DNA from: Pezizomycotina sp. ARF18
Lineage: Eukaryota > Ascomycota
Length of the DNA stretch: 64,000 nt
Assembly: GCA_002224055.1 (NCBI GenBank)
Contig: AZLU01000100.1
Span: forward strand, 81,350-145,349
Reading direction: 5' to 3'
Under the pieces are notes generated by a model. It had not been told where the DNA came from, made no database searches, and worked only from the letters and a program-made list of their open reading frames with translations. The stretch's first letter is position 1, and the number at the start of each line of letters is the position of its first letter. The position numbers and the translations under genes are program-made. This document shows positions 2,797 to 55,100 of the stretch, piece by piece.

Positions 2797-2831
2797 GGGG
2801 CCTATTTTACCACTAACATGGTATAGGCCCC
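2797..2831. other. GC-rich hairpin in gene-free stretch 2431-3700
   Basis: GGGGCCTAT...ACC pairs with GGTATAGGCCCC across a short loop, giving a stem of about 12 bp. It precedes an open 67-codon stretch (2843-3046) with no recognisable features. I see no coding gene between 2431 and 3700. The hairpin could be a terminal-repeat remnant or a transcript structure; nothing decides between these. Confidence 0.5.
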
Positions 2832-3715
2832 GGGGGTAGTGCATGTTGGGCGCATGTGTTGGCATGGTTTTCGTTCTCGCGGCAAAAATTGAGAGGCTCG
2901 CGGCTCAGTGCATGAAGTCCACTGCCTCAATAGGGCAAAAACCAATCGGAGTCCCTGGCTGGCCTGGTAGAAACACGGTTATTGTAGGCTACTATGGGCT
3001 AAAAACTGCCGCGCACCCCGATCTTGTGGATTGGCTGGAAGGCTAGATAAGGCAATGTAACGGTCGCGTTTTGGGGAAACAAAGCTCAAGTTGTGGGCAA
3101 GTCTTAAAGGCTGGAAGTATGCCACTTGAAACCGTCAATGATCGCTTGCTCTTTTCGAAGCAACATTTTGGTTTCTATATTAAGAGCTTCTAGTTCTTAG
3201 CAGAAGCAGGAACGAATGACATAAACCAGCGCGCAGACTAGAAAACATCACGCCGGCAAGGGAAGTAGTTGCGCTATTATAAGGTGCAACATAAATGTGC
3301 GTTCTTTGTAAGCAATAACGCGTTTTATATCCAACGTACATACATCTAGGGCCGTTATCTGTGGAAGTGGAAAGGATAATATCGTGACTTACTACGGAGT
3401 CTAGATTCCTTGAGCGATGGGTTTGATGATATTGCTGTTGTATATTAGATATAAAAATCGATTTAGCCGACATTAGACGACGTCACTACTATTGAGATGA
3501 GATCTAGATGTATGGATGGTCAGTTTAACATTGACTACAAATTATTCATTAAGACTACTACTATTACTACTGCTAACACTAATGTTCGTGATGGGATATG
3601 TCGCTCTGCTAACAATGAAAAGAAATTGAAACAAAAGGGATGACGTGCAAGGACATTAAGGGCAGACCATCGATCGTACCGGAGAATTTGGAAAGAACCA
3701 ACACTCATTCTACCC

Positions 3716-4248
3716 TTAGAAGCTACCACCGCAATACGCGTACTCCCGACAATTCACATTCCCCGGCAAGCACTGTATGGCCTTCTGCCCGTCCGACATC
3801 CCCGGCAACCAATCGCTCTTAAAGCACCACTCGCTAAAAAACATCGCTCTCATCGTTACTATTCTTACAATACACCCAGCCAATATGATCCGTGACGCTA
3901 ACCTGCGCATTTTCGTACGTCTCGCTCTGCCAGTAATAGCAATCGTACGCGTTGACGCGGAAGTAGATGGATTGCTCATTGGGGATTACGCCGTTGACGA
4001 TGGAGGGGTCGTTTATGGGTTGACGGTAGTATTGCACCGGTCTTCGAGCTGGGAGAGGTTTGTGTCGTAGGTTATGGAGGAGGTACAGTCGGCGGGTGGG
4101 GAGCGGGGGTCGATTTGGTCTTGGAGAGGCCGGTGCATTGGGTGCATTTGTTGAGGGAGATGCGGGTTAGTTCGTTGGGCTCCCAGATTGCGGAGGCGGT
4201 GGAGGAGAGGAGGGCGGCGGTGAGGGATAGGATGGTTGACGTATACAT
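3716..4248 (-). CDS. Small secreted cysteine-containing protein (frame broken)
   Basis: The start at 4248 opens a typical signal peptide (MYTSTILSLTAALLSSTASA) followed by a mature part. The mature part has paired cysteines ('KCTQCTG'), a Tyr-rich middle ('AYDCYYWQSE', 'HIGWVYC') and a Cys-containing C-terminus ('WCFKSDWLPGM', 'CLPGN', 'CREYAYCGG'). The total is about 175 residues and about 9 Cys, in the size range of fungal secreted effectors or surface proteins. The frame shifts by one base near 4125, 4045 and 3840, each at a C or T homopolymer, while cysteine spacing and composition stay coherent. I do not recognise a named family. The prediction of export rests on the signal peptide. Confidence 0.6.
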
Positions 4249-6841: not shown

Positions 6842-8844
6842 CTAAGAAGCGGGAGTGGAACTCGTGGAAGCCTCCGCAGTCTCAGTCGGGATGGGACTCT
6901 CGTAAGCATCGGTTATAGAGATGACGCTAGGACTCTTATAAGCGCTCGTCGTAATAACGGTAGCCGGACTGGAAACGGCCGCCGGGACAACGCTCTAGAC
7001 CGCAGCAGGAACAATGCTCATCGTGGTACCGTTAATCCCGCTAGGTTTCTTACCGGCTCCCTTCCTAAAGCAATCCTGTCCAAACCCACACTCCGGATCG
7101 TCCTTATGGAACCAGCTAGAGATCTCATTGTAATTCCAGCAGTGGTCCAGATCTTGACCGGATCGGTCTTCCACAGGTCGTAGTCATGCTTACCAAATAT
7201 GTCGAGCGTGGCGTACAGCCTGTTGTCGAATCCCATCTCGAAGCTCATACCTTGACAACTGGCGTCCTTGGGCGACTGCATGTTCGTGATAATCTTTCCG
7301 TTGGGTCGAGGTAGGTGGAGAGACCCGCACCGGCTTTAGCGTAGACGGAGGGTTCTTCGGTTACACTTACGCCCTTCTTCCAGGTCCTGCCGATGGTGAT
7401 GCTAACACCGAAGTCAAGAGAGAAGCGGACACCGGCGCGTGCTTCGGCGGAGATTTCGGCTTCGAGGTCGAAGATGGCTTTAGGAGTGGGGGACCAGTTG
7501 TTCTTTTGCGAGTTGGCGAAGTTAGTAAGGTCGATCCGAGCGTTCGCGTTGTCCCACTGGAGACGCCGCCGATGAGGACTTTTCCGGTGGTCTTTACTTG
7601 ACCTTGGAGGAATGGCTCGAGCGAGAGGGAAGGACCTGCGGTGAAGAAACCGCCGAGGGTGAACGGAGACAAAGGGTACGTGAAAGTCTTGGAGATTTCG
7701 GCAGATAGCGGGTTGGTGCCGCCGTCTCCGCCGTGAGTGGCGTACTGCTCGTTCGCGGAGACGCCGATGGCGATCTGAGCCAGCGAGGACTGCGCGACGA
7801 TCGCCGTAGCGCCGGTAACACCCCTGAACCAGCTCCAGGAGATGGAGCCAGAAGTAGAGATCGTGCCATTAATTCCGCAAGCGACACAAGCGACGCTAAG
7901 ACCCGCCTCATCATCGGACCAGAGGGTCTTTCCGGGACCCCAGGGGTATTATCGTCCATGAGCCTGAAGTCCACATAATGCTTCTTGTCCCAGGTGTAAC
8001 CGCCCCAGCCCAGACCCCTACGCTTCAGCGAGGTCTTCCCCGTCATCGGTACGAGACCAGTCTCCGGCCACGTACCCTCGAACTGCAATTCCAGATCATC
8101 AACATCGCGCTTCTGGTACTCGTAACCAGTTCCGTGCTGCGAGTTCAAACACTTCTTGTGGTCGTTGCCCCAACCAAGTCTGAAGTCAGTCACGACTTCC
8201 CCCTCGGTAGGTCGTCGTAGCGTATCGTCAGCGTCCACTGGCTACCCTCCTTAACGGGCGTCTGGCGGACGTCGTACGACTGCTTGAAGAACTGCAGAAC
8301 GTCGGGCTTCCCGCATCCGGAACCGTACGCGTCCATGAAGGTTTGGCGGTTGTTCTTGTTGCCCCACCAGAGATCCATGGCAGCTTTCGCGTCCTTCTCG
8401 GACTTGAAGGATACTTTAAGCTTTGCGTTGCCCGTGCTATCGGGTTCATGGCATTGGATATCGGATACCAAATCAGATGCGCCGAGATTGATAACCGGCG
8501 TTTTAAAACTGACGAGCAGAGCGGCGGCGACGGGGCGTTGTCCGTTCTCGGGTTGGAGGTTAGAGTCGGCGAACCAGAGCAGGTGGCGAGGCTTCGGCTC
8601 GAGGCCGTCGATTCGATCCACGGCCGAGTCAGGGTGGTTTAGGGGAGCGAGAATGACGTGAGGAATGCCAGAGTGATCCGTCTCGTTGTATGGCCACATA
8701 TCCAATTGCGGCGTTGCCCGGCGCCGGAGCAGCCGCGGGAGTCGCCTGGTAAGTGTTGGTTGTTTGGGGCCTGTTTACGGCGGCGGCAAGCACCGCCGTG
8801 GCCGTCAGTGGAACCAGTCCCAAGGGTATCAACGAGAACTTCAT
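6842..8844 (-). CDS. Secreted DUF7029/DUF7223-type protein with Ser/Thr-rich C-terminus
   Basis: The signal peptide starts at 8844 (MKFSLIPLGLVPLTATAVLA). A DUF7029-like region follows: 'VINLGASDLVSDIQC', 'LKVSFKSEKDAKAA', 'GSGCGK', 'TDFRLGWG'. A DUF7223-like region comes next, with the Cys pair 'SVACVACGINGTIS', repeated beta-type segments ('FTLGGFFTAGPSLSLEP', 'AEISAEARAGVRF') and a tail ending in a Ser/Thr/Pro-rich stretch. These domains occur in secreted fungal proteins of unknown biochemical role. The frame shifts at about 8705, 8200, 7935 and 7150, and probably in 7370-7600, all at short G/C runs. An in-frame TAG lies at 6995-6997, but 50 further codons of matching Ser/Thr-rich composition run to the stop at 6842. 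The reading therefore probably extends that far. No intron is needed. Confidence 0.75.
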
Positions 8845-25645: not shown

Positions 25646-25652
25646 TATAAAA
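25646..25652 (+). promoter_or_regulatory. TATA box, array gene 1
   Basis: TATAAAA lies 153 bp upstream of the ATG at 25799. Comparable boxes precede most other array genes. Confidence 0.5.
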
Positions 25653-25798: not shown

Positions 25799-26013
25799 AT
25801 GTGCCAAACTATCAAATACCATTACCAATGCGGCTGCAAGGTTCCCGGACACCTCTGTGGGCATGCAAGGACTATCAACGAAGCAGAGGCAAAATCCCCT
25901 GCATCCTTAAAGAGGATATTGTCCGCATGGACGGTCAATGCCGAGTATGTCAAGGAGCGTATGATACTTGGATTCTAATGGCAAAACCTGAAGAGATCGC
26001 ACAGGATAAATAG
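25799..26013 (+). CDS. Array gene 1: small MC...CxC...CxxC protein
   Basis: The ATG is chosen at 25799 because Met-Cys starts every copy. The protein reads 'MCQTIKYHYQCGCKVPGHLC' and continues for about 40 residues. After a one-base frame break between about 25865 and 25900 it ends with 'DGQCRVCQGAYDTWILM' before the TAG at 26011-26013. It is about 71 residues long with eight Cys (MC, CGC, C, C, CxxC plus one). No signal peptide. The cysteine spacing suggests zinc or other metal binding in the cytoplasm or nucleus; this is inference. An A21 tract follows at 26076. Confidence 0.65.
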
Positions 26014-26301
26014 TGTAAGGGGGCTCAATTAGGAGGAATCGCTAGTTTGAGGTGACGTTATATTGGACATAAATTAAAAAAAAAAAAAAAAAAAAATAGT
26101 GTACATTATTAGGGTAAAGCCTATATCAGATTTTGCCTCTAAAGCGAATCCCGATGCATAGAATCCGCGTAGCAATACAAAATCCAGCGATTCACGTATT
26201 GTTTCTGAGAATTTCAGATGTTATATATCTCTAGTTAAATGAGCGCAAACTCAAGAATGTAATCTCAATTGAACTTCAAAAGATAATCCACCGGACAGAA
26301 G

Positions 26302-26308
26302 TATAAAT
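26302..26308 (+). promoter_or_regulatory. TATA box, array gene 2
   Basis: TATAAAT lies 172 bp upstream of the ATG at 26474. It is followed by a CA/CT-rich leader ending ACCAACCTCAGC-ATG. Confidence 0.5.
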
Positions 26309-26473
26309 TCAACGGCCGCCAGCAGACTCTGCCTTTAGTAATTGCTGTATCGACCAGCTCGTTACTCGCAAGCATACAACGTCCTAATCTTCTAACTCCT
26401 CAAATTACCATTTGCGTCAACCGCGGTCAAAATCACAACCAAAAAAACAGGGGCAGCTCAAACCAACCTCAGC

Positions 26474-26662
26474 ATGTGCCTCAAATCGGACTTAGGTATA
26501 ATTTTGCAGCTGCCTTTACCGGTGCGTCATAGCCGAGTGCTCTTGCGTCGGCTTCGGCGCCAGCGGGTCGATCCGTAACCCTGCAGAGGTGGATGTTAAG
26601 CATATAGAGGTCGGTGTAGCGATTGTTGGCGGTCACATATGCGCCAAGCCTTCTACTCCTAG
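26474..26662 (+). CDS. Array gene 2: MC...CxC...CxxC protein (frame broken)
   Basis: The start is ATGTGC at 26474 ('MCLKSDLG'). In the next frame the CxC block 'CSCLYRCVIAEC' closely resembles 'CDCLYRAYLTQC' of array gene 4. The terminal block 'RCSDCWRSHMRQ' lies in yet another frame before a TAG at 26660-26662. All three blocks occur in the order and spacing of the family, so I treat this as a member despite at least two single-base breaks. It could also be a decayed copy. Confidence 0.5.
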
Positions 26663-27401
26663 GTCTAACCCCCCGAGGATCCCGTACTCATGGGATCCGG
26701 GCTTGGAAGATCTGGATAAACTCGATAGAAGCATTATCAAAAGAAGTATCTACCGCATGTTTTTTTTTAGTTTGTTTTTTTTTTGTCGGTAGCATGTTAC
26801 ATCAAAGGGCACTGGCAATTTAACATATTACGGATTTGCCCTGCTCTTGTCTTATTACATCATTCTCTATTCTTCTATCATTCTCTATTCTTCGGTATTA
26901 TTAACGTTCATTGAACCGTCCAATTACGTATTACCGTCTGTTATGTAGTGATGTACTTGATTTTGTGCGGTTTAGTGCTTTCTTCAACTCATATTATTTG
27001 AAAAATGCAGCCCCTCAAGTTTCACTCTACTAGAAAGATAATGACTAGAATTCATTGATTTCAGGGTCGAGTAAGGATACATCGATATATCAAGATAGAA
27101 CTTTGCAGAGGCTCCTTTGCATTCTTCTGTTGCTTTTGTTCGCCTATTCAATACTTTGAAAGCTAGCTTTTCAAATGAGATTTGTCCCGAAAGCTGTATC
27201 AAAAGATTCGTTCTTTGGAAATAAGATAAAGGCCAAAATCGTTATTTCTTATCGACATAATACGATACTCTTCGTCAGGCTCGTGGAAGTTGCTCTCATT
27301 CTCGCCTTTCTACACAATTCAAGTTTGGTGTCTCGATTTTACAGTGTGCGAGCCCGGGAATAATCAGGACACTTTCCGCAGGATACTTTGTAGAGAGGTA
27401 A

Positions 27402-27409
27402 TATAAATA
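27402..27409 (+). promoter_or_regulatory. TATA box, array gene 3
   Basis: TATAAATA lies 195 bp upstream of the ATG at 27597. The leader between them is CA/AAC-rich, as in expressed fungal genes. Confidence 0.5.
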
Positions 27410-27596
27410 TCACCTTGCACTACTTGTATCCTCTGCTTCCAACAACAACTCTTCAAGCATCATACCGACTAAAGATCAATAACGAAAACTTACGTAGGAG
27501 TTACCAACGGGAAATCACACGAGCAACACTTCCACGATCTCAAAAACGTCCCCTCGCCAACACAGAATCTCCAAAAAGAAGTCTACTACAGTAGCC

Positions 27597-27750
27597 ATGT
27601 GTAATGAGATACACATTTACTTCACAGTTTGCGGCTGTATTTTGAACAATATCCTCCACGGATTGAACAGTGCGATCGCGTTCGCCGAGACGGAGACGGA
27701 CGCCTTTGTGATCCCTTGAAAGTGAAACTTGTCGGTTGATAGTGGCGATA
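27597..27750 (+). CDS. Array gene 3: MC...CGC protein (3' end unclear)
   Basis: 'MCNEIHIYFTVCGCILNN' is in frame from 27597. A charged Cys block 'EQCDRVRRDGDGRLC' resembles the middle of array gene 5 and lies in a shifted frame at about 27666-27710. I cannot place the terminal CxxC block with certainty, so the end given is approximate. An A24 tract follows at 27936-27959. Between it and array gene 4 I see only that gene's promoter region. Confidence 0.45.
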
Positions 27751-28823
27751 CACGGACAAGTGTAAGCGGCTGGAAAGATAACCCACGCCCCACGTCGGTG
27801 TGATCCAGCGGTACGCGTGGATCTAGGGGGCTTGAAATCGAGGAATTAGTTTCTCGGCTGGTACGTTTTCTCTTTCTTTCTTTCTTTTTCCAACTATGGC
27901 GGGTTAGGAGAAGGGATCTGTTGAGATCGTTTAGGAAAAAAAAAAAAAAAAAAAAAAAAGACAAATACTTTAGTTACTCACAAGCAAACTTGATCAGGAT
28001 ATCAGCCTGTGCATCTGCAACAAAAGTTTTTTTCTCAGTTGAGGTTTCTTCGACGTCTCGTGTCATAGCTTTTTGTCCATTCCCGCTACACTGCGATACA
28101 TACAGTCTGCTTTTAAGCTCATTAATTTTATAAATAAGGAAAACTCCTCAAAATCGAACCAATGAATCAAGTGAAGAGCTGTAGCATTCAAAACCGAATT
28201 GTTACTCACGATCTCGTTCGGGCAATTAGTGTACACAATTTAGTTTCGCTTTATAGATAAAATAAATAAATGAATAAATAAGGAATAGAGAATGATAGGG
28301 GCGCTCTGTCCATTGCATGAGGAGACCCGTTATGCGTTATCAGTAGCCAGGCGAGGACCATGCATAGAAATGTTCGTATTTTTTTAGTTAAAGATAATCG
28401 GGATTTCAAGTCGCTTATACATGCCGTAGCTTTCATCTGCGATATACTGCCGCATGCTTAGCCTTTTTGACACTTAATAAGGAAATCGATCCTAAAGAAA
28501 AGACGGTAAACCACCTACGTGACCTCGTGCAATTGTAATATTCTAATTTATTGTTTAATGGCACAAGTCTAGAATAGAGGGAATTAAGTGAAAAGATCTC
28601 GATATCATTTCGAGACGAGAGTTATTTGTAATTGTACTTTCATATCTCTTATCTTCCTGTGGTACCGTTATTCTCAATTCGAGCTCTACACGACGGTCAA
28701 TTATGAAGCAGGTATACCAGATTGCATCCTATGCTGTTATGCAAAGTCATGTCGATATATCTATTGGGGCAGACAAGCTCAGGGATAACCCCTCCCGGAG
28801 AATGGCGGAAACTGGGAAGAGGA

Positions 28824-28830
28824 TATAAAA
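28824..28830 (+). promoter_or_regulatory. TATA box, array gene 4
   Basis: TATAAAA lies 188 bp upstream of the ATG at 29012. A GGAGCTACAA motif lies about 95 bp upstream of the ATG and recurs before array genes 5, 6 and 7. Confidence 0.5.
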
Positions 28831-29011
28831 TAGACTGGTGTGGAGGTCTCGGTGACAATAGATATATCGAGTAACTTCAACCACGAAGTCGTACTAACTC
28901 ACAGCTAAAAGCACCTTGGAGCTACAAAGTCATTAGATCAGCAATTAACGACATTCAGCACATGTGTTGAACACCCCCCACCCCCCCTATTTTTCAAGAA
29001 TAGCTTCGACC

Positions 29012-29274
29012 ATGTGCGTCAGGAAAGAAATCTACGGAAGCTGCGACTGCCTTTACCGAGCCTACTTGACCCAGTGCGAACAATCCACCTCTACCGCTAC
29101 CGAGTTAACTTGTATTCCTAAAATCTGTGCACGCGATCGTATAAAAAGGAAATTACTCGCATGGATCTCCCCTGCGCCGATTGCCAAGATGGACACGATA
29201 AAAGGGCTCATAAGAGGAAAATTCCCGGCGTGGGATATCTAGGGTCCGGACCACCCCAGGTTGGGAGAAATTGA
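29012..29274 (+). CDS. Array gene 4: MC...CDC...CxxC protein
   Basis: The ATG at 29012 gives 'MCVRKEIYGSCDCLYRAYL' and 'TQCEQSTSTATELTC'. The terminal block 'LPCADCQDGHDKRAHKR' lies one base out of frame at about 29160-29215, and its frame closes at TGA 29272-29274. The unshifted frame would stop at 29242. Predicted size is about 87 residues with 8 Cys, no signal peptide. The CDCLYR stretch is the closest link to array gene 2, suggesting that these two are sister copies. Confidence 0.6.
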
Positions 29275-29893
29275 AATCGGTAAATTCATTTTGGGGATAC
29301 TGTTTGAAACGTCAAACCTTCACTGGACTCGGATACGAGTTCTGTAGTTACAGGCTCGTTAATTCAGGATATTATTATACCTAGTTTTTGAGTTCAGTAC
29401 CAGTTTATTGGTAATTGGGATTATTGCTGTCTATATTTTCTGTTGCATCATACTAAACATTAAAAAAAAGAGTTAAAATCTTTTTGAAAGCAAATATATA
29501 CAAATGCAAAGATATAAAGGAGTAATGCGAATATCTATATAGGGCGGACAACGTATAAATTCAGACAATGATATCTGAGACCAGGTTATGAATTGCGTTA
29601 TCCTTCGGCGTCTCTTTTAGCAGTAAACTGAAAAAAGCCCTCCAAAACTGTAACTCAACGAAGAAATTTCCTTAATTTTCTGTGAGCTTGTAAAATATAT
29701 TATTTAAAGTAAAGGATTCATAGCGCTGTTATTGCATTTTTGATGGCCCGCGTGAAGAGTTGTCTCGGATGGATGACTGGCTTTCCATTGAGTAATTTTC
29801 ATTGTTAGCTCTTCCGTAAGGTTGGGTAAATATTTTATTCAGGCATAGTATAAGGTTAAGGGTACGTCCCGAAAGAATCTTGATGAGCGATGG

Positions 29894-29900
29894 TATAAAT
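29894..29900 (+). promoter_or_regulatory. TATA box, array gene 5
   Basis: TATAAAT followed by TCAAC lies 172 bp upstream of the ATG at 30066. The same TATAAATTCAAC word occurs before array gene 2 (26302), pointing to a duplicated promoter. Confidence 0.55.
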
Positions 29901-30065
29901 TCAACTACAACTGGTGATAGACCCTGCGCTAATCATCGTATTGACAAGAAAACAGAGGATTCCATCTAGGAGCTGCAATACCAAAAATTATCAAAAGGAC
30001 GCTACTATACACGCACGAATATTTCCAAGACATCGAAAAAAGAAAATCTCTAGAATACCTTCAAG

Positions 30066-30297
30066 ATGTGCTTCAGAATCTTAACCCTCGATCTGGTCTG
30101 CAAATGCCTTATAAACGTCAGGTAGAAATGTGCCGTCGCGCCGACCCAAGCGGTAACCCAGAACATTGTGAACTTTTCCAAGTCTGGGTTATCGACAGCT
30201 ATTAATATATTGCTCGGTACCAGACCGATGCGACGCTTGTCAACGAGAGCATGATGCCAGGACTGCCGAACGAACGGCTGAAGGAACGTCTGAGTAG
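30066..30297 (+). CDS. Array gene 5: MC...CKC...CxxC protein (frame broken)
   Basis: The start ATGTGC at 30066 gives 'MCFRILTLDLVCKC'. The middle 'YKRQVEMCRRADPSGNPEHC' follows one frame over. The last block 'DRCDACQREHDARTAER' follows in a third frame and closes at TAG 30295-30297. The final block is a near match to array gene 7 ('GRCESCQQTYDARLAE'). None of these pieces is long enough alone to be noticed as a gene; order and spacing identify it. A T21 tract follows at 30376. Confidence 0.5.
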
Positions 30298-30840
30298 TTG
30301 GTGGGAGAGACTTTGGTTGCCGACGGGCTTGATACTTGCACCGCTTTCCAATACCAGCAGTATCTGACTTCTCTCTTTTTTTTTTTTTTTTTTTTTCAGA
30401 AGCAGGAATGGGGTTACGGTTTTTTTTTATTATTATTCGTAGAACTTTGCAAGAGCATAATTAATTTTTAGTGTACCTACGTTTTTATTTCGCGTTGTAG
30501 AGGTAAAAAGAAGAGGAAAATAAAAGAAAAATAAAAAAGCGAGAATAGAACAATTGGAACGCTACTACTAGTATCCATTCGGTGAGACTTCCCAATCGAA
30601 GCTTCTCGAAGGGCGGAACCTAGTCAACAGTGGCAGCCTCAAGCATTCCGATGCTCTGCGGCGGTCCTGTCTGGCAAAGCAGAGCTCGGATATATCATCC
30701 ACCGGGGACGGACTGCACTCTAACCATCAATAGACCAAGAACACGGCCAAACTACCTCTGAGCTACAACCCGACAGTTCCAAATCAAATCGCCACCTACA
30801 GAAAAGATAAACAGCACTTCAGAGCACCATCAACTTGAAG

Positions 30841-31074
30841 ATGTGCACTATTTCGGAACAGCGCTGGAGAATTTGCGACTGTCTTCTCAAATTCAGTTTG
30901 GTGCTTTGCATTCGCTCCAACGACCCGAAGGGTTGTCATGAAAAACGCGCTGGAATTACCTATTCTGGGGAGCTATGCCGCGAACATCAGCAATTATACG
31001 ACGACATACTCGCTGAGATGAGTTCATCATCTGAGTCTCCTATAACACCGAAATCGCCTCAGAAAGAGCTATAA
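30841..31074 (+). CDS. Array gene 6: MC...CDC...CxxH protein, 77 aa, unbroken
   Basis: This is one of three copies open from ATGTGC to stop. It reads 'MCTISEQRWRICDCLLKF', 'LCIRSNDPKGC' and 'ELCREHQQLYDDILAEM', then a Ser/Pro tail. The terminal CxxC is replaced by CxxH, which would still allow zinc ligation. A GAGCTACAA motif lies 79 bp upstream. No signal peptide. Its leader (CATCAACTTGAAG-ATG) looks like a functional fungal 5' UTR. Confidence 0.65.
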   Translation: MCTISEQRWRICDCLLKFSLVLCIRSNDPKGCHEKRAGITYSGELCREHQQLYDDILAEMSSSSESPITPKSPQKEL

Positions 31075-31795
31075 ACCGTGGACAGCGCAAGCTATTCAGC
31101 ATTGAGGATCCTGGAAGACTACTATTAGTTTACTATAGATTATTACTATGTAAATTACCTATTTATTGGCACGTTGGACCATCAGTAGTGTTTACAGTGG
31201 CAAATGCTAGACCCCCCAAAAAATAAAATAAAATAAACGCCTAAATAAAAATCAATGAAAAAAAATCGAAACTTAGAAATTCAACTGATCATGTCAAGGC
31301 TGAGCATGCCAACTTGCGAATCCAGGCTCTACATACTATGTAGAAGTTTTTTTTTTTTTTTTTTCCTTCAAAATTGGGTTTCAAACATGCCATGGGATTT
31401 TAGATTCACTCGTCTCGCCAATCTAATACCGCTAGCATAATAGTACGTGTAGTCGAGGGATATCTGTGAAATAATGACGTTCAGGAGTACGTAGTGCAAT
31501 TCCTGAGTTCATAAGGATAGGTTGATGTCTGAAGACGACTGGATGGAATTTAATTGATATCACTTGTCACTCTTTCAAGCTAGACCGAAAAACTGCATCG
31601 GATTTTGTATGGGAATGAGCAATGGGGCGTGAAATAATTATAACAATGAGGTAACGAATCTTTTTCGGAGTAATTCTCCAAGTCCAGCCGTTTCTGCAAC
31701 TTCAAGATGATACTTGCAGTGCCTGCCCCTGGCAGTGAGCTTAATGATATATACATCCTAAAGAACTTGAAGCCTTGTTGAAAAATGCAAGGCGG

Positions 31796-31803
31796 TATAA
31801 ATA
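31796..31803 (+). promoter_or_regulatory. TATA box, array gene 7
   Basis: TATAAATA lies 138 bp upstream of the ATG at 31934. GGAGCTAC lies about 73 bp upstream of the ATG. Confidence 0.5.
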
Positions 31804-31933
31804 TTTTACCTTGGACCGGTGGCACTGCTCTCGCCATACCCATCAAAGTCACTACTTACCTGGGAGCTACTGTACAATCATCTACGAAACAGCCATCACT
31901 ATATCATAAACAACACTTTAGAACAGCCGCAAG

Positions 31934-32128
31934 ATGTGCATTTCATCAAAAACCTACTGGGAAACTTGCCTCTGCCTTTGTTATCACAACTTCGTAAAAT
32001 GTATTCGCGTGAACCAAATTGGTTCGCAGGGCTGTGATATGGTAAAAAAGGGGATCTTTTTCACCAAGGGTCGATGCGAATCGTGCCAGCAAACGTATGA
32101 TGCGAGGCTAGCTGAATTACTTTCATAG
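31934..32128 (+). CDS. Array gene 7: MC...CLC...CxxC protein, 64 aa, unbroken
   Basis: This is the shortest intact copy and the best reference for the family. It reads 'MCISSKTYWETCLCLCYHNF', 'KCIRVNQIGSQGC', 'KKGIFFTKGRCESCQQTYD' and ends 'ARLAELLS'. It has eight cysteines in 64 residues, basic, with no signal peptide or membrane helix. The layout of N-terminal Met-Cys, a CxC pair and a C-terminal CxxC-Q knuckle suggests a small metal-binding fold. The acceptor or partner is unknown. Confidence 0.7.
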   Translation: MCISSKTYWETCLCLCYHNFVKCIRVNQIGSQGCDMVKKGIFFTKGRCESCQQTYDARLAELLS

Positions 32129-32765
32129 CAGCAATCCTAAGAGAAATCAGCGGTCTATTTAGCTCAGAGAGATTTTCTACTCTCAAGAAGATTTAGGCCT
32201 ATCTTAATATTTTAGAATAGGATTTTAGAAAATATCACTCTGTTTTAATCAAATAATAATAAACTATTTATTCAAGTTGTTCACATTTTAGTTTGACTAT
32301 AGCTATGAGCCTGGGGAGGGACATGTTAAGGACGTATGTCGGTCTGTATTCTATTTGAGAGCCAAGAGCAGAACCGAGCCATAAACATTAAATTCTCTCT
32401 ATTTTATGATTCTTTTCTTCGTATTCAGTATTGTTATGAATATTCATGGCGAATAACAACGAATTTTGCTTCAAGTCTCATAATACTTTTGTGACAACAC
32501 TGAGGCAAAATTTATATGGATAAGCTTCGGTAAACCAACGTGCTTGATGTGTAATGACTAACGGCTGGTAAATTCAACCTTCCACCTGAAGCTCATGGTG
32601 CCCGATGCAAGCTGGTGCTTGAGCGTCATGATAAATACCAATTCTCCGGCTTTTCCATAATCCGCCGGACTCTAGTTAATCAATATTAGCCACAGAACTA
32701 TTACTCTAATCAAGGCGACATTTCCTGCATCATCATTCTAAATTCTAGGATTTTCTGATCTAAAA

Positions 32766-32772
32766 TATAAAG
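32766..32772 (+). promoter_or_regulatory. TATA box, array gene 8
   Basis: TATAAAG lies 65 bp upstream of the ATG at 32831. Confidence 0.45.
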
Positions 32773-32830
32773 CCCATATACCATTAGCGACCACGAGACA
32801 CGTTATAGAGAAGCTCCGAATTCTGGAACA

Positions 32831-33788
32831 ATGTGCCTCAACGTGTTTTACTGGTACAGCATATGTCATTGTAAGGTCGACGCCAAGGTCCTCAGAACCT
32901 GCGCGCGCCGTCTGGAACCCATCAAAGGACACAGGTCTTACTGCAAAGAACCTAGAGATCTAACTTTCGAATTTAAAGAGGAGATGTGCTCCAAGTGCAA
33001 ACGTTTACCAGGGACAAACGCAAAGAGATAGAGCTGAAGTACAAGAGCGGCTAGACCGACGGAAAAAGGACAAGCAGAGACTCGACAAGGAGTGGGAGCG
33101 GCAACCGTGGATCAAGGAGGCGGAGAAGAAGTTGAAGGAGCAGGAGCGCCTGGGCAAGAATTACCGCGGGAGTGATCGAACTGGTGGAGTGAGGGATGGA
33201 GATGAACAGAATTTCGACGATGTGGAAGTTGTTGACTGGACGACCTGGATTCGGATGAGAAGAACGCCTACATCACCCGGACGTGGAACGACCTCAAGAA
33301 CCGCGCTTATGGTAGCCGCTCCAGTAGCCACCCTAGACGCGCCACGACGATCGTCCTGATACTCGCTCTAACAGTCGTCCGGACACTCGCTCTAGCAGTC
33401 GTCCGGACACTCGCTCTCGTAACCGTCCTCCTACTCGCTCCGGCAGCCGGCCACGTGTGCACTTTGAGGACGAGCTTGATAACGCCCGCTCCGCCAAGGA
33501 GTTTAGCAGTAGCTCTGACGATGATCTGCTTGATATTCGCCCCAGCAGTCGCCACGGGCAAGAGCCCGATCTGATAATCGCGAGGAAGTTGAATACCGTA
33601 CTAGTAGTCACCACCATCATCGCCACCGTCACCGCCATCGCCATCGTTCGCGTTCTCGTTCGCGTGAACGGGAGGGCGATAGCGGCTCGCAGACCAACCT
33701 TACTGAGTTCCGCCCAATTAGCTCCCCTACTTTCCGACCCGGCACCCGCCCTAGTAGTCACGATAAATCTCGCAGCCATCGGTACTAA
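32831..33788 (+). CDS. Array gene 8: MC...CHC...CxxC protein with long coiled-coil, RS-repeat and His/Arg-rich tail
   Basis: The N-terminus is a standard array member: 'MCLNVFYWYSICHCKV', 'LRTCARR', 'SYCKEP', 'EEMCSKC'. After a one-base break at about 33000 the frame continues without stop through a Glu/Lys/Arg-rich helical stretch ('RDRAEVQERLDRRKKDKQRL'). After another break near 33240 come 'ITRTWNDLKNRAYGSRS' and a tandem RPDTRS(N/S)S array (33352-33450), then 'VHFEDELDNARSAKEF'. A last part alternates His/Arg ('SHHHHRHRHRHRHRSRSRS') and ends 'PSSHDKSRSHRY' at TAA 33786-33788. The RS/RH-rich tail resembles nuclear-speckle-type low-complexity proteins; that is inference. Confidence 0.55.
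33352..33450 (+). repeat. 24-bp coding tandem repeat (RPDTRSxS)
   Basis: About four units of CGTCC(T/G)GA(T/C)ACTCGCTCT.. encode repeated Arg-Pro-Asp-Thr-Arg-Ser octapeptides, with the last unit diverged to RPPTRSGS. Units differ mainly at single positions. The frame is kept within the array, so length change here would alter repeat number without disrupting the tail. Confidence 0.7.
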
Positions 33789-34645
33789 GCATCATGCCTC
33801 TGAGAGAGACTGCTGTGACAACTCGGACTTTGTGATATAGTTTTTATTTCGAAGTGGTAGTACCTGCCATAGAAGAATAAATCGCAAAAGCAGGCTTTCA
33901 GGACAGATTTGAAGACGCTTCCGCTTGTTTAATAATATTATTAGCTATTTGACACAAACCACTGATTAGTATATAAACACTCAATAGCGAAAGCCGAATG
34001 TGTAAGGTAACATCAATGTATAGCAGCGTAGACTTGATCAGTAAGTAAAATGCACTTACTGCCACATTGGAAGAAAAAAGAAATTGCATTTGTACTCGTT
34101 TCATTCGTATATCTCTAGCTCAAGACCAAATATGATATCTTGCGCCGAGTTTATCTATACAGTTAGTTATTTCCCATGTGATCGCCGTTTACTCTTCTTG
34201 ATATTAGGCGCTATAAGTGTCACAGAAGCACAGAGCCATTTTGATTCTCTTTTTAGTAATATAACGATTATCCGGCACGGAGACGCAATGGCCGATGTAA
34301 CAAATTATAGTCCGGTTTTCTCCGTTTCAAAATCGCCTGGGCTGAATTCCATGCCTGCACTACCTTGCCGGGCTATATTCTATAGTTGCACAACTTCAAT
34401 AACCCGGGGTATCGATACTTAAAACATGTGTAGACGCTTAGTCCGTACAAGCCCGAAAAGGGCCTAAATGCAGGGTATGGTACACACTTGAGGCAGGTGC
34501 TGATATTTCAGCTCCTTACGGATAGTAATTTACTTGTCCTCTCGTATCCTCGGATGATTATAAGATAACAGTCGGTTCCCAGTCACGATCCAATTGAAGG
34601 TTGTGTACAAATATACCACAGAACTACGGTCTTCATTCTACATAC
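33789..34645. other. Spacer between array genes 8 and 9
   Basis: No gene supported. An open 112-codon stretch (34084-34422) lacks the family signature and any signal peptide. One ATGTGT at 34426 opens only 13 codons without CxC, so it is not counted as a member. Confidence 0.4.
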
Positions 34646-34653
34646 TATAAAAA
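34646..34653 (+). promoter_or_regulatory. TATA box, array gene 9
   Basis: TATAAAAA lies 95 bp upstream of the ATG at 34741. Confidence 0.45.
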
Positions 34654-34740
34654 TTACCGAAATCTAATCACTGGCCCAACAATTCATTAACACTTATAAC
34701 CAGAAAATAAAGTCCAAAATCTCAGATTATCCGATAGAGG

Positions 34741-34983
34741 ATGTGTTTTCGATACACATACGTTTACTCGTGCGGCGAAAGGCAGCCTGGAAAGACCCAA
34801 AAATGCGACGAGGAGAAACTTGCAGTGTGGGGACGCGAGCATTGTGAAAAGGTCCGACAGTTAACGCAGGATGTACCAAGGCGTTGTGGATATTGCTTCC
34901 CTTACTGCTACAACATCGAGATACTCATGAAGAAAAAGAGGGACGCCGAAGTCGGTGAAGAGCTAGGGGGAAGTCCAGCCTGA
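34741..34983 (+). CDS. Array gene 9: divergent MC...CG...CxxC protein, 80 aa, unbroken
   Basis: Open from ATGTGT to TGA: 'MCFRYTYVYSCGERQPG', 'KCDEEKLAVWGREHC', 'VPRRCGYCFPYCYN', then an acidic/Gly tail. The CxC is reduced to Cys-Gly, and two extra cysteines follow the CxxC. This version resembles dispersed fungal predicted proteins that begin MC(F/Y).(D/x)..Y.CG and are annotated hypothetical. It may link the array to a broader undescribed family. Confidence 0.65.
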   Translation: MCFRYTYVYSCGERQPGKTQKCDEEKLAVWGREHCEKVRQLTQDVPRRCGYCFPYCYNIEILMKKKRDAEVGEELGGSPA

Positions 34984-35826
34984 AAGACACTCGTGGGCGC
35001 ATTGACCAGTCGATAATATAGCTGGAGCCTTGCAAGGTACACGCGGCGCCGGCAGACATATCTTTACTATTATCACTCGACAATTGGGTATCGGAGCTAG
35101 CTCTGTGTCAATAAGTTACGTTGGTAAGGAACTATCCCATGATTCGATCGATATGCTTACGTCTAATTGAAAGTGTATTGTCCAATAGAATGGCCGCCGT
35201 CAGATCGATATGTTTTTCCCCACCGACAATTGAAATCGCTTCTTGCTTCCTGACCATAGTATTTTAATTCGACTCCAGATTACTTATACATTAGTTAATA
35301 TACCTTCTTTCTTTCCACCCTCTCTTCATAGATCTACATTCCTTGATCAATACCGCTCCTAAGGTGGAGTACATGTAAGGTTCTCGTGCCATGAAACGGG
35401 ATAAAAATCACTGTATCGATAAGATAGACAAATAATAACGTCTGGAGCGTCGTATATAGTGCGCTGAGAGATTGGGTTATTTCTGCAGATACCGTAAAAA
35501 TTAAATTTTCTGCAGACGGTGTTCCAGGATACGATCGCCTCGAAGTCTCCTGGGAGAGATCAGATGATCTGTTGCGATGGCGGTTGTTGCAATGGTTGGT
35601 TACAGCCAAGACTGCCTAGTGGCGTCCAATCATATGCCTAGATTACCGTCACTTGTTCATGCTTTTGCCGCCTTTCCCGGGCTGTGAATCCTGCCAAGTC
35701 ACTCGCCTCGACCGAAAAGTATCGTGTATCAGATATATAGATGTCATTGTCTGACCAAGGAACACCCAAGTTCTTAAGTTATTCTATTTTAAATACCTCC
35801 CCAGAATTCGCTCAAAATTTCTGAAA

Positions 35827-36026
35827 ATGTGCAACCAAGTGTCGATACAATACGTTAGATGCGGTTGCATTGTTCCGCACAACTCCGTTAAGCTTGCCCG
35901 CGGGTGGGAAAATATGATCCAATCTGTCTAGAGCTTGGCCCCCCAATTCTAAAGACTTACAACATCCGCTGCTCGACTTGCGAGGGCGATTACGCGCGAT
36001 GGAGAGCTGAGCGCTTAGCAGGTTGA
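35827..36026 (+). CDS. Array gene 10: MC...CGC...CxxC protein (frame broken)
   Basis: 'MCNQVSIQYVRCGCIVPHNS' is in frame from 35827 and would stop after 34 codons. One base over, 'YDPICLELGPPILKTYN' and the terminal block 'IRCSTCEGDYARWRAERLAG' complete the family signature to TGA 36024-36026. Length after the break is about 65 residues, matching intact array gene 7. A weak TATATAG lies at 35734-35740. This is the last copy; 36027-36796 has no gene I can support. Confidence 0.6.
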
Positions 36027-36796: not shown

Positions 36797-38938
36797 ATGG
36801 CTGAGCGAGGGCTTTCACCCGACGAGGCCTTCAAGGAGAAGAATTTAAACCCATGCATCGCGCCAATTCGCCGCTATATAATTAGATATCCAAATTCCTC
36901 TTCCTTCAAAGTTCAGCGTCCCTTGTTTTTCTTTACAAATTGTCTTAGTGACCCAAATTTGTATCATAATATCACTCTAAACCACGCAATGGTGTTCCTA
37001 CAACTCTGCCTGTTCTATGAAACGCGAACTCCCAGATATTAGTATGCAGATATCCACAAACCGACATACATAGCAATCTCGCACATTTGGACCGATGAAG
37101 CTAACTGGACGCAGAGAGATGTTAAGGCATCACAACAAAAGACGCGATTCATAAGAGAGAAGATCCGGATCTTGTTGGAGAAACTCCTTTTGATGGATAT
37201 CCTGGCGGTAGACCAGCACGACCGAGCGGCTGCCCTCTCCGTGGTAGAGCACATACCTACGATTTACAGAAATGCAAGCAAGATGATCGTAGTTCGCGAA
37301 AGCGGTGGTTTCGAAGAATGCTGCCTCAACATGGGTATAGATAATCCGACACATGCGCCGATGGTGGTTGATCATATACACCACTTTCATTCCCCAGGGT
37401 TCTCGGAGAAATGGCTCACCAGAGTTTGGCCGTATCAAGAAATGAAGTTATCCTATACCTTACAATTTGTGGTTTGTGATGACTACCATTGGCAGAGACG
37501 ACCTCACTTCGGTTCACACGACCATGATCTCCAGGGAGCAATGATGACATATTTTGCCAGCATCCTGAAATCGATCGTCTTGGTCGGGAATGGCTGGCTA
37601 CTGGGGAGCCACCATGGGGGGGCGCTAAACCCTTCGACATTATTGAAATGGTCTTAATCTGGATTAAAAGATTTCAGAAAGTCCGACTTGAAAGGTTTCG
37701 AAAAGCGTTCTTCTACCGCGGTACAATAAGCAAGGGTTGTGCAATCCCGATTGGACGGCCCGAAAAGACATAGGAAATTATCGAGTATCATCTTAGCCTA
37801 TGACGAAAGCGGGGCTTGCCAACGGATAGCGAGCAGGCCTTGTGATTTTATACTATCCATTTTCCCGACGTTTAACTGGTACAAACTACCGCCAATATCC
37901 GAAGCATCTCGATGGGGGATCTTTGGGCCGATGCGCTCCATCAACTCAAGAATAGACCCAAATCTGAGAGGGCAATGCTTTTACCAGGATAGCCCTAGGG
38001 ATGCTGGACGCGCGTGCAAATTTATCGAACTCAGCATGTGCAACTCTAGACATCCGATGCCTTTCAGTTTACGCGAGTGTTGTAGCTTGTTCATCGAACT
38101 TCCATTTCAGCTACCCCCTCATCTTGCAGAGGTGCTGAAGCCGCTCCAAGGTTTCATCGGCTTCTCCCTCTGAAGCAGTATCAAACATTCTGGCTCATTG
38201 AGAACATTGACGACGACATAACACTCATGGAGGTTCTCCAAGCAATAAGCGAAAGCATGGGTTTCCTTCTTGCTATAATATTTAATAACAACGACGATAT
38301 TCCGCGAGAGTTGTTTGACCTCAATGACGTATGCCACAGGAGGGAAGGCGATGATATTAACAAACAGGAAGCAGGACCGAGGTTATTCCAAGGAGCCCTG
38401 ACAAGAGACAGGAACTACACCTCGCGCTAGAGCTTCTTTTGACCATGAACATGTTTTACCTGCGCGTGAAAATCATATTGGCCTCGGATCAAATCGAGCA
38501 GTCTCCGTACGTTTTCAAACGATGGTGGAATGGGATCGCGGTTTCGGTTCGGGTATATGGTAGGCCTTCACTGCGAAAGAAGCTAATGCGTCTTGCGGCG
38601 CTCGGAATATGCGGCCTTCCCCCTTAGCTCTCTAGACTGGTCACTAAAGCACTTTAAACCTTACTTTCTGCGACCTGGAGGTCGGAAATGAACGCCTTGC
38701 TACGGCGTATCCTGTCTTAGCGGCCAAGAACTCGAATCTCCCGGCCGATGAACACGTCGCGCTGGATCAAGGCCTACCAATCATTACCTTTGCATCAACT
38801 CTCCGAACGATCCTACTCACCAGGCATAAGAAACTTCTTACACATCAACCAATACTAGCGGAGTTTAGATTGAAACGTTGCGAATATATATTGGACGATA
38901 TAAACGGAAAGCATGCTGCGGGTTTTAGCTCTCATTAG
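36797..38938 (+). CDS. HET-like (heterokaryon incompatibility) domain protein, frame broken
   Basis: The HET signature begins at about 37042 with 'YIAISHIWTDEANW'. It continues 'KLLLMDILAVDQHDRAAAL' and 'HIPTIYRNASKMIVV', the positions where HET proteins have Y.A(I/V)SH.W, (W)(L/M)D..C(I/V), and IY..A....V. Downstream come 'KWLTRVWPYQEMKL', 'RPCDFILSIFPTFNWY', 'WLIENIDDDITLMEVLQAIS' and 'LALDQGLPIITFASTLRTIL', ending at TAG 38936-38938. HET proteins trigger cell death on non-self recognition in filamentous ascomycetes. The catalytic-type Cys of the usual 'C(I/V)' is absent at 'MDILAVD', so this may be an inactive or divergent copy. Start uncertain; breaks near 37660, 38190, 38440 and 38660. 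Confidence 0.6.
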
Positions 38939-47982: not shown

Positions 47983-50149
47983 CTACGCCTGAACGCAGTA
48001 GGCGTTTCCAACTACAAGATTAGAGCAGGTTGCGTCGATGGCAGGGTGAGCTCTCTGAACTCCGGTAAATGGATCTTCTCCATGCCCATAACCCTGGCGC
48101 ACGTTTCTCCTTGTTTGAAGACGTGCCATTTCTGACAGACCTTCACGGTTCCGCTGGCAGTCGGCCCCGGCGGCTTGACACCTGTTCCCGTGGGAGCATT
48201 GCCGCCACTACTGCTTCCCGGGCTAGCGCTGCTGCTTCCAGGCTTAGCGGTACTTCTAGGTGTAGCCGGGTAGTCTTAGGAGGGGTGGTTGGCTTCGGCG
48301 ATGACTCCGCGGTAGTAGGTATCGGCGCCTGGCTGCTTTTAGAGTGGAACTTGATCTCATCAACGCAGTATGCCGTGTCTAACCAGATGTTCCTGCAATC
48401 GTCATCGATCCAGGGGTTCATAGCTTGGAACTGCTTAAAGGTAATGTTGTTTTTGTCCGAAACACTTTGGCAGTCATCGCCGGCTTTCGTGACGTACCAC
48501 TTAAGGCAATCCTTCGGAGCACCCTCGTTAGTGCCCGTGGGTGGTTCTACGGGCTCCAAGGGGATATCCAGCGGCGGCCAAACTGGCGTTCCGGTTGGCA
48601 GGGGGCACCGGCGTCTATAAGACAGTAGGATGAAAAGACCTTCATCCAAGCTTCGTTTTTTAAAGCGAAGTCTGGGAGCTCACCATTCTCCATGAAGTCA
48701 AAGTCAGGGCAACCGGTGTAGTTGGCCCAACCGACGGCATGGAACCCTTACGTCGGTTTCCGTAATGATCTTGATAGGGTTTGTTTGGTTGGGCCAGATG
48801 TATGTTTTCGTGGCGTTGACAATGCTCGTCGCGGATAGATCGATGGAGCCAGTCATAATATCGCTGGGAAACTGGATACGCGACCAATTTGGATACGACT
48901 TGATGTTTCCAACTGGGGCCACGCAGTACGCCGTACGGCTATAAGGTTACTGCAGTCGGTGCGCACGCCCGGGTTGAGGAACGTGAAATCTTTTTGAGAG
49001 ATACTGAATTCCTCGCCGATCCATTTGCAGCTATCCCCTGCCTTCAGCGTTTGCCACTTGGCGCAGGTATCGGTAGAGCCGCAAGCGCATTTGAAGGCTT
49101 GGGGGCCTTGACGGGAGTCTTGTCGGGGAGCTCTTTCACACCCGGCGGCGTAACGCAGATGCTGTTGCCGACCTTCAGCGGGAGGTTTGAACAACTGTTC
49201 GTGAGACCCAAGTTCCATGATACGAGCTGCGCCTGGGTGAATTTCTTCCCTTCAGATTTAATAATGGACTCGCAGGTATCATTCTTTTGGACTTGGTAGA
49301 TCTTGCATGGCTGCGGCATGCAGAGCTTTTGGCCCGCGTGAGGTAAGTGCAGTTGGCGTCTAGCCCGTTGATGATAACGAGCTCATCCGTAGACACGGAT
49401 TTCGCCTTGGAGATAGATGCGCATGTATCTGTCTTGGCCGCTGTGTACTTAGCATCCGATGGATCGCAGCGCACAATAGGCCCCGAGGAGCCTGTCGGAG
49501 CGGGCGAGCCAGACGAAGGTGAACCGGTCGGCGACCCGGTGGCAGAGGGAGCTCCGGCAGTATAAGTTAGAGGGTATTTGTCGTTACCGATTTTACACGC
49601 CTTCTTATCGTCGGCAAAGGTCGAAGGATCTCCAAAGTCTGGCTGCCCAAATTGTGAATTGAGCGTCATCTGCTGCGTCAAAAATAGCAAGGATCGCAGT
49701 TTACGCCGTCGCTCTGGTTCGCCAGGAGAACTGACTGGCAGTACCTCCCCGCGCTGTTTTTCATACAGGTGACGTTAAAACGCCACAGATTCTGGTCGCC
49801 GTAGAAATACAGATCGAGGGCTGGATCTGGGGCGTTGTTCAGGGGTGTATTTGCCGGACAGCTCTTGTGGACATTATCAACGTAGGATTTGATGGACGCT
49901 CCGCAAGTCGCGCTGCAGAGGTTATCAAGCTGAGAGTCGGTCCACGAGTCTAGACCGCCGTTAACGGCACGGAGGAGGTTCAGACTGCATTTGATAGTAG
50001 TCGTGAGGGCGGCACGACAGCGCGCCGGATGCCCACTGGAAGTGAAGTCGCACCGAGCTTGAAGAGCTGGAAGTCGCTTGAACTGACGGGATGCTAGCTA
50101 AAGCTAGCGCCGCAATAATGGTGCCACTGTGGGCGAAGGAGATTTTCAT
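47983..50149 (-). CDS. Secreted protein with five LysM modules
   Basis: A signal peptide starts at 50149 (MKISFAHSGTIIAALALASIPSVQA). A non-LysM N-terminal part has paired Cys ('NLCSATCGASIKSYVD', 'FNVTCMKNSAGRYCQSVL'), and a Ser/Pro/Gly linker follows. The LysM modules are 'YTAAKTDTCASISKAKSVST', 'IYQVQKNDTCESIIKSEGKK', 'WQTLKAGDSCKWIGEEFSIS', 'WYVTKAGDDCQSVSDKNNIT' and 'WHVFKQGETCARVMG'. Each pairs with a later 'N....C.N(L/I)....(A/S)(Y/I)CV' half. The stop is at 47983. LysM binds chitin oligomers; secreted fungal LysM proteins shield hyphae or sequester chitin fragments. The gene is transcribed away from the chitinase 2 kb to the right, a pairing known for killer-toxin-like chitinases. Several single-base breaks (near 50060, 49330, 48930, 48650, 48045). 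Confidence 0.85.
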
Positions 50150-52164: not shown

Positions 52165-55100
52165 ATGAAGTTGTTGAAGAGTCAGGGCCTCAATGGCTCT
52201 CTTCCCTTCATTCTCGTTCTCCTACTATCATTCATTAATCTTGTCGCTGCCGATATTCTCTGCAGCGAGACAGAAGAATGCCCCAACAAGGCATGCTGTT
52301 ATATCCGAGGAAAAGGCGATGGTATTTGTGGATATGGGTTCGTTCACTTTCAATTCATACTGCTAAGCAGTTGAGACGCGAAGCTAACGTTGGATTATTG
52401 AATGCTTCAGACCAGACTTTTGCACAAAGAAGGGTAGCAAGCCCAAAGGTTGTGTAAGCCACTGCGATGCCCACGCAGAATGCGGCAAATACGCCGAGAA
52501 ACCTGGGACGAAGTGTCCTTTGTATGGAGACCACGCCATTTGGTTTATTGATTCAATAAACGTAAACATTGCTGACAATATTGTACCATTTCAGGACGTT
52601 TGTTGTTCGAAATGGGGTTTTGCGGTAATACATACACCCTGCCTACGTTCCTGAGACTGCATAAAATCGACTGGTGCTAATGGTAGGAAAATTTATAGGA
52701 ACTGCTGACGACTTCTGCGGCGACGATTGCCAAAGCAACTGTTTCAAGCCCAAGCCTCCGGGCTGCGGCGGCGGCAAGCCGATGGACCGTCGCATCGGTT
52801 ACTACGAAGCGTGGGCGGCTACGCGGAAATGCGATGCAGTTCCACCTGAACACCTTCCGGCCGCGGAGCTGACGCATCTCAACTACGCTTTCGCAACGAT
52901 ATCGGAGGACTACAAGCTCAAGTTAGACAGTAAAATCGGCGGCGACACGGAGCTCATCGAACGTTTCAATAATTTGAAGTCGGAACACCCTCATTTGAAA
53001 ACATATATAGCTATTGGAGGTTGGAGTTTTAACGTGAGTCAATTCACGATCGAACATAGCATTGATACGGTTCTAACCTTCATCCCTCCAGGACCCGCCG
53101 ACTGAGCACATCTTCTCTGACATGGCGGCCGATGGAGGAAACCGCAAAACGTTCGCGAAGAACGTTCTTGATTTCATCAGAGAGCACGGCTTCGATGTAA
53201 GTAACCCGCACGGTCTCCCTGATCAAGGGTCTAGGCGATATATAAGTGCCCTCTAACGGTTGTAACGGATTCTAGGGTGTCGACCTGGACTGGGAGTACC
53301 GGCCGCCAAAGATCGCGGTGGCAAGGAGGAAGATACGAAGAACTACGTCAAGGTCATTGAGGAACTGAGAAAGACTTTTGACCAATCCGGCGGCGGCTAC
53401 GGTATCACCTTTACCATTCCTGCGAGTTACTGGTATTTACGCAACTTCGACGTGTCTGGGATGCTGAACGCGGGTGCGGACTGGGCGAATTTTGTAAGAG
53501 CCATTCCCGTTCTGAGAATGCCGGCTTTTCAGGTGTTTGCTAACTTAACATCGATTTATCCTTTAGATGAGTTATGACATGCACGGCACCTGGGACCGCA
53601 ACTCTACCTGGATTGGCCCAGTTATGGGTGCACACACTAACCTGACTGAGATCGAAGCTGGTTTCAATTTGTTGTGGCGAGACCCAAAGTGAAGGCCGAA
53701 CAGATTGTCATGGGCTTCGGGTTTACGGACGTAGCTTTGCAGCCGAGAGCACCTCGTGCTTGACGAATGGTTGCCCGTTTTCAACAGGTGCTCCAGGCGG
53801 GCAGTGCTCCGATACCGAAGGAATCCTGACATGGAACGGTGAGATATGATCTGAGGATAAAGCGTTCCTCCGTCTGTGACTTCTTTTAGCTAATTATAAT
53901 TTCCGGTGAATTTCAGAGATCAAGGACATCATCGATAGTGGTGAAGGCCAGGAAACTGGAACGAAGAAGCCGCTGTTAATTACATGGTCTACGACGGCAA
54001 TTCGTGGATCTCCTACGACGATAAAAAGACTTTCAAGCAGAAGACGGACTTTGCGAAAAAGTTGTGCCTAGGGGGAATCATGATTTGGGCAGTAGATCAG
54101 GACTCCAAAGGTAACGATAAAACACAAATTGTAATAGAACCAAACGCCAGTATCCGTCATACTAACCAAGCTATTCACCGTTAGACTTTTCTGCTCTCGG
54201 GAACCTCCTGGGAAAAACATCGAAGACGGTCTCGAAGACGGTAAGTCCATCTCTTATGCTACAACAAGATCGAAGCAAGCTAATTAGAACCGACGAACCG
54301 ACATAGAGGAGGACAACGATATCAACGAGCTTAAAGGCGCCAGCGGCGAAAACTGCTACATAAGTAGCGACTGTGGTACTCCCGGTGAGCCGGCCACATG
54401 CGGGAAAGGCGACAGGGTGCTCGAGTTTGTTCATACACCTATGATTATGTCTGAGGGCGACACCGGTAGTGGTATGAGGATGGGTTGCGCAAAGGGCCGG
54501 TTCAGGTCAATTTGCTGTCCGATTAACGAAATGCCTCGCAACTGCAAATGTAAGCTACCTCACGGCTTTTCTTATTTGACTTCTTTTCGACTTATAGACC
54601 GCCATTGACGTACGAACCTATTTTTCTAGGGGGCGGCTGCGGTGACGGAGGCTGTGACCACGAGAAGATCCTGCTCGAGGCGGACAAGAACAAGTGGCGT
54701 GAAGGCGGCCAGATGTGCCCTACCGGGAAAAAGCGCAGCCTGTGCTGTGACGCCGATCCGGCTCTCAACCAGTGTCATTGGGAGGAGTGCTCAAAGACAC
54801 GACGTGCCGCAACAAGTTCAAGTCCGTCATGTCCTCGCCTATCGGACCGGACCTGAAGGAATGCCCGAGCGGCCAGGCGAGCAGTTTCTGCTGCCCGGAT
54901 CCTAACCCGTACAAGAACTGTGAGTGGGCCGGTGCGGATAATGACTGCTCCGATGTCAAATGCAGCGCGGGCAAGGTTAGGATCACGAGCAACTCGGCGG
55001 TGTTAACGCCTTCCAAAGGCGGCACGATTAGCTGCTCTGGAGGCCAAGCCATGAACTACTGCTGCGATGCTCCTAAGAAAGAGCATAAGAACTTGCCGGT

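Follow-up and report, generated by a model that had tools for sequence, protein, structure and literature searches.

Can a run of very short reading frames that share the placement of their cysteines, most of them interrupted by frame breaks, represent a family of genuine genes? This question is raised by a 64,000-nucleotide stretch of the genome of Pezizomycotina sp. ARF18 (the window; positions 81350–145349, at the end of contig AZLU01000100.1, here denoted C100). An earlier examination of its letters, the sequence-only reading, had proposed that the interval 25799–36026 of the window holds a rapidly diverging cluster of ten plus-strand cysteine microprotein genes. We find that an array of short, cysteine-patterned, same-strand genes is real. 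With a probability of roughly 0.6, it consists of about ten paralogous, separately transcribed genes whose proteins of approximately 64–90 residues would fold around zinc and act as intracellular protein-binding modules, the frame breaks being mostly insertion or deletion errors (indels) of the assembly.

All ten ATGTG(C/T) starts lie where they had been placed, 675–1910 nt apart (mean 1114 nt; Table 1), and the copies are named here by their start positions. Nine of them carry in frame an N-terminal block of the type MC-x7-10-C-(xC or G), denoted N-block, the exception being 26474, whose CSC lies in another frame. A C-terminal block, C-x2-[CH]-[QEK]-x2-[YH] in its strict form and denoted C-block, follows in nine copies, with 135–163 nt between the start codon and the CxxC/H block; in 26474, 32831 and 34741, which are included in this range, the C-block is weaker and was assigned by eye, and 27597 has no clear C-block. 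The layout that had been described, with a terminal block in nine copies, is confirmed. As had also been claimed, 30841, 31934 and 34741 are open throughout.

To judge these counts, we compared them with 1000 first-order Markov shuffles of the interval 25799–36026. The plus strand contains nine N-blocks against a mean of 0.016 expected (maximum 1), and six C-blocks against 0.078 (maximum 2). Neither block is found on the minus strand of this interval, and the N-block is absent from both strands of the remaining 54 kb of the window. The latter contains three stray C-blocks (1438 and 11380 on the plus strand, 48821 on the minus strand) with no visible associated gene; because of these, the C-block alone is not specific and counts only together with its position. 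The test is post hoc in that the blocks had been named from the same sequence, and the excess is still far larger than this explains.

The kinship of the copies was assessed by searches that covered the whole genome (46.36 Mb in 408 contigs) and by a profile test. In the genome search, 30841 and 31934 matched each other with 39% identity at E values of 2e-6 to 3e-6. A profile of these two sequences was tested against 13 pieces taken from the remaining eight copies and against 1000 shuffles of each piece, the limits of the pieces having been picked by us around the blocks, which is a bias in their favour. The scores of the best eight pieces were reached by 14 or fewer shuffles (25799C, 1; 27597N, 4; 29012N, 2; 29012C, 14; 30066C, 0; 32831, 2; 34741, 9; 35827N, 0). 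Two further pieces were weaker (30066N, 47; 35827C, 88), and three failed (25799N, 376; 30066mid, 342; 26474C, 276). Seven of the eight copies have at least one piece at or below 14 shuffles per 1000. The eighth, 26474, fails the test, yet it carries TATAAATTC at −172, the identical word at the identical place as in 30066; it is the least certain copy and, taken alone, could be a product of chance. Genome-wide searches with 29012, 32831 and 34741 recovered no other array copy, which indicates strong divergence, and no similarity between copies is left at the DNA level. A weak genome match of 34741 at C14:234300 (E 0.009) has no MC start and is surrounded by stops in all three frames; we regard it as fortuitous. 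Block excess, spacing and the paralogue match together bear out the proposal of a same-strand, fast-diverging cluster.

The upstream regions are also patterned. A TATA(A/T)A box lies at −60 to −220 of eight of the ten starts, where 2.1 would be expected on average for ten positions drawn at random from the surrounding sequence (P = 0.0002 for eight or more), and the leaders of all ten copies are poor in G (9–13 G per 80 nt). Given these TATA-like boxes, the copies look, as far as sequence can tell, like separate transcription units. Runs of 18–24 A or T occur between array genes at 26076, 27936, 30376 and 31347.

The sequence-only reading had noted one-base frame breaks between the blocks. Such breaks are present, but they are best regarded as a property of the assembly, whose HSP70 genes show them likewise. 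The Pfam HSP70 profile matches 38 pieces in the same genome. Among loci with at least three pieces, and counting neighbouring pieces whose gap in the DNA equals the gap in the profile to within 30 nt, five loci show 21 indel-like frame changes over 9132 nt (introns included), 14 of which are exactly one base short; the loci on C44 (two pieces) and C10 (one piece) were dropped. Two of the 21 changes join heavily overlapping pieces and may be spurious (198–329/217–441 on C3 and 59–122/75–148 on C70). The density amounts to about one indel per 280–435 nt, mostly single-base losses, as illustrated by C49:53036–54818 with six frame changes in 1783 nt and by the C70 locus with six in 1609 nt. Because introns cannot account for pieces that abut, and because it is hardly credible that all five HSP70 loci are so broken, we attribute these changes to assembly indels. 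Their pattern in the assembly resembles that of uncorrected long reads, the sequencing method that we infer.

Of nine array copies, five have the C-block in phase with the start; the phase is one base short in three and two bases short in one, with all frames read as assembled and none mended. Since the one- and two-base deficits carry the signature of the HSP70 breaks, we read them as assembly indels as well, and most of the array genes probably have unbroken frames in the living fungus. What weighs against this is the density of breaks in the array: it equals or exceeds the highest values of the HSP70 range, and single copies may be dead. Taken further, the array could be an old one that has largely decayed into pseudogenes, with 30841, 31934 and 34741 as the only copies still functional, as the six or seven broken copies out of ten and a break density above the HSP70 average would suggest. 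We consider this unlikely, because the HSP70 genes of this assembly are broken alike and because the broken copies have retained blocks, spacing and TATA boxes.

A second set of similar genes exists elsewhere in the genome. In the first 80 kb of C100, the N-block, a pattern that members with CxH escape, occurs once, at C100:3088 on the minus strand, and searches starting from this match led to further genes on C100, C178, C96 and C43 (Table 1). The genome search scores only the best candidates, and the second set therefore comprises at least these genes; a piece at C178:70534 (E 0.01) shows neither MC start nor block in the scans and is unconfirmed. The 5-kb flanks of the C96 array and about 5 kb around the C43 gene contain no further open N-block, and the window array is the largest of the arrays found. 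Members of the second set share with the window array the MC start (here MC-x-K), the cysteine layout with C-x-[H/C] at residues 10–13, two cysteines in the middle and a later CxxC, the block spacing (CxxC at 147–153 nt from the start in six of nine, those showing it in frame), the tandem arrangement on C100 and C96, and the predicted order of strands and helix; TATA boxes precede six of nine. They differ in a YxCxC-like middle cysteine pair, in a PTPxAP-like stretch in several members and in a longer C-terminal helix in some. Profile comparison of the two sets gave an hhalign probability of 1.2%, and none of 12 cross-set profile tests came clear of its own 300 shuffles, the best score being reached by 23 of 300. 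Agreement is thus confined to layout, spacing and predicted secondary-structure order; we do not claim kinship of the two sets, and their common descent is possible.

Small structural zinc sites usually consist of two paired-cysteine turns at a near-fixed distance, the first located at a hairpin and the other where a helix begins, as in zinc ribbons and treble clefs. The AlphaFold2 model of 31934 comprises strands at residues 2–9, 14–21 and 39–43 and a helix at 49–63 (mean predicted local distance difference test score, pLDDT, 61.9); that of C100:6285 has strands at 3–8, 14–17 and 41–46 and a helix at 51–59 (mean pLDDT 74.5). The two independent models, of low to middling confidence, agree in the order of elements; in each, CxC or CxH separates strands 1 and 2, and the helix begins with CxxC. 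In the proposed site, the CxC (or CG) turn between the two short strands near the start would form one half and the CxxC (or CxxH) that begins the C-terminal helix the other; Cys2 and the middle cysteines might contribute additional ligands. A methionine preceding cysteine is normally removed, so that Cys2 would be the N-terminus of the array proteins; their common MC start is in part a matter of construction, the copies having been found by it. By hydropathy, the only measure applied, seven of nine N-termini score below 1.8 and two above 2.2, four of the nine being judged on 16–23 residues; most are thus unlike signal peptides, which would suit an intracellular location. There the proteins may serve as small protein-binding modules, adapters or competitors, with a partner-contacting surface that would change fast while the metal ligands stay. 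Probably the array is a lineage-expanded family of small, intracellular, zinc-binding proteins, for which we infer both zinc binding and location.

The fast divergence, small size, tandem arrangement and cysteines would also suit unconventionally secreted or host-directed proteins, either effector-like or antimicrobial peptides, and GH18 and, below cut-off, LysM-type pieces occur elsewhere in the window. This is improbable given that, by hydropathy, seven of nine N-termini lack a signal-peptide-like hydrophobic start and that disulphides fit the spacing of CxC and CxxC, together with a C-terminal helix, less well than a metal site does. Metal buffers of the metallothionein kind, to which CxC and CxxC motifs might likewise point, are very improbable: the open copies have only 6–8 cysteines in 64–80 residues (8 of 64 in 31934, 6 of 77 in 30841, 7 of 80 in 34741), all three contain Tyr, Trp or Phe, and a helix is predicted. 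A chance alignment of cysteine codons, to which a motif named only after looking and the three stray C-blocks might point, is for the array as a whole refuted by the N-block excess, the empty opposite strand and the paralogue match.

Comparison with known families gave the following results. No Pfam family was found above its curated cut-off for nine proteins or pieces of the window (copies 26474, 27597, 30066 and 35827 not among them) and four second-set relatives, and no NCBIfam family for the three open copies and four relatives; one second-set relative matched ZZ_ADA2 and zf-ChsH2 below cut-off. Against sequences of the PDB, profile A1 gave no match at E 10, and profile A4 gave four matches at chance level (best E 0.087), none of them zinc fingers. 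Among solved folds, zinc-finger families included, no close one was found with models of low to middling confidence. The array proteins resemble zinc-ribbon and ZZ-type small zinc domains in their paired-cysteine turns and CxxC, but differ in having neither a match above cut-off nor a close solved fold. In a collection of 5.8 billion proteins that is nearly devoid of fungi, 34741 found no homologue, and an alignment of four second-set proteins (A2) yielded 328 candidates, none at E ≤ 1. Grg1 is regarded as near-universal in filamentous ascomycetes, and as a control the genome's own Grg1 found one relative there, a metagenome protein; these negatives therefore carry little weight. A limited literature search gave no description of such a family. 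With a protein collection so poor in fungi and so few literature searches, the suggestion of an undescribed system is not borne out. As the sequence-only reading also noted, there would be scattered fungal "hypothetical" proteins that begin with MC...Y.CG; these would be similar in their small size, their MC start, a CG/CxC or CxH around residue 11 and a CxxC further on, and dissimilar in being scattered single genes rather than ten in one same-strand array. If so, the array is the tandem expansion of a family that is unstudied but not unseen.

Gene finders easily overlook short genes, and all the more where an assembly carries one indel per few hundred bases; annotation may thus underestimate the families of fungal microproteins. 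Should the proposed metal site hold true, the array would be a compact example of a metal scaffold that stays fixed beneath a surface free to vary, with expansion in tandem and look-alike arrays elsewhere in one genome, and the partner of the proteins becomes a direct question.

Table 1. Features of the array (window positions) and of the second gene set (contig positions)
Feature	Position	Strand	Observation
Copy 1	25799–26013	+	N-block MC..CGC and C-block 25939 in different frames, offset 140 nt
Copy 2, least certain	26474–26662	+	ATGTGC start, CSC in other frame, C-block 26615
Copy 3	27597–27760 (end approximate)	+	N-block MC..CGC, no clear C-block
Copy 4	29012–29244 (end approximate)	+	Middle cysteines in frame with N-block; C-block 29173 in a different frame
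Copy 5	30066–30297	+	N-block, middle and C-block (30229) each in its own frame (three frames)
Copy 6	30841–31074	+	77 residues, uninterrupted
Copy 7	31934–32128	+	64 residues, uninterrupted; predicted strand-strand-strand-helix, CxxC at helix start
Copy 8	32831–33031	+	Open to 66 residues with CxC and CxxC
Copy 9	34741–34983	+	80 residues, uninterrupted; first cysteine of C-block at 34885, 144 nt from start
Copy 10	35827–36026	+	N-block MC..CGC; C-block 35970 in other frame
TATAAA, copy 1	25646–25651	+	At −153
TATAAA, copy 2	26302	+	Upstream scan
TATAAA, copy 3	27402	+	Upstream scan
TATAAA, copy 4	28824	+	Upstream scan
TATAAA, copy 5	29894	+	Upstream scan
TATAAA, copy 7	31796	+	Upstream scan
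TATAAA, copy 9	34646	+	Upstream scan
TATATA, copy 10	35734	+	Upstream scan
24-nt tandem repeat	33351–33446	+	Arg/Ser/Asp-rich in one frame; in possible copy 8 extension
Second set, C100	6285, 4716, 3088 (span 2690–6285)	-	Tandem; further C-block near 1417
Second set, C96	129156, 130356, 131721, 132832 (span 129156–133128)	+	Tandem
Second set, C178	72090 (72090–72569)	+	Genome search
Second set, C43	29956 (29956–30105)	+	Genome search

On the 3′ side of copy 8, a different open frame at 32964–33840 on the plus strand encodes a charged, helix-like sequence that reaches into the 24-nt repeat and may be a C-terminal extension of this copy.

Pfam matches above cut-off in the window comprise a HET domain, a fungal rhodopsin domain, GH18, a P450 and DUF6606, which points to a filamentous fungus. 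The HET (heterokaryon incompatibility) domain gene lies at 37043–37654 on the plus strand, about 1 kb past the end of the array. On the basis of this proximity, one might envisage the array as an arsenal of fast-evolving intracellular zinc microproteins in fungal internal conflict or recognition, in which the exposed N-terminal cysteine would be functional as a metal ligand or as an oxygen-sensitive degradation signal; we hold this to be highly doubtful. A general link of such arrays to HET genes is not supported: of at least 15 HET matches in the genome, one lies beside the window array (C100:118416), and none is found on C96, C178 or C43. Elsewhere in the window, pieces in several frames at 48146–49774 (minus strand), 52665–53102 (plus strand) and 7370–8774 (minus strand) match GH18 above cut-off and LysM, DUF7029 and DUF7223 below it.

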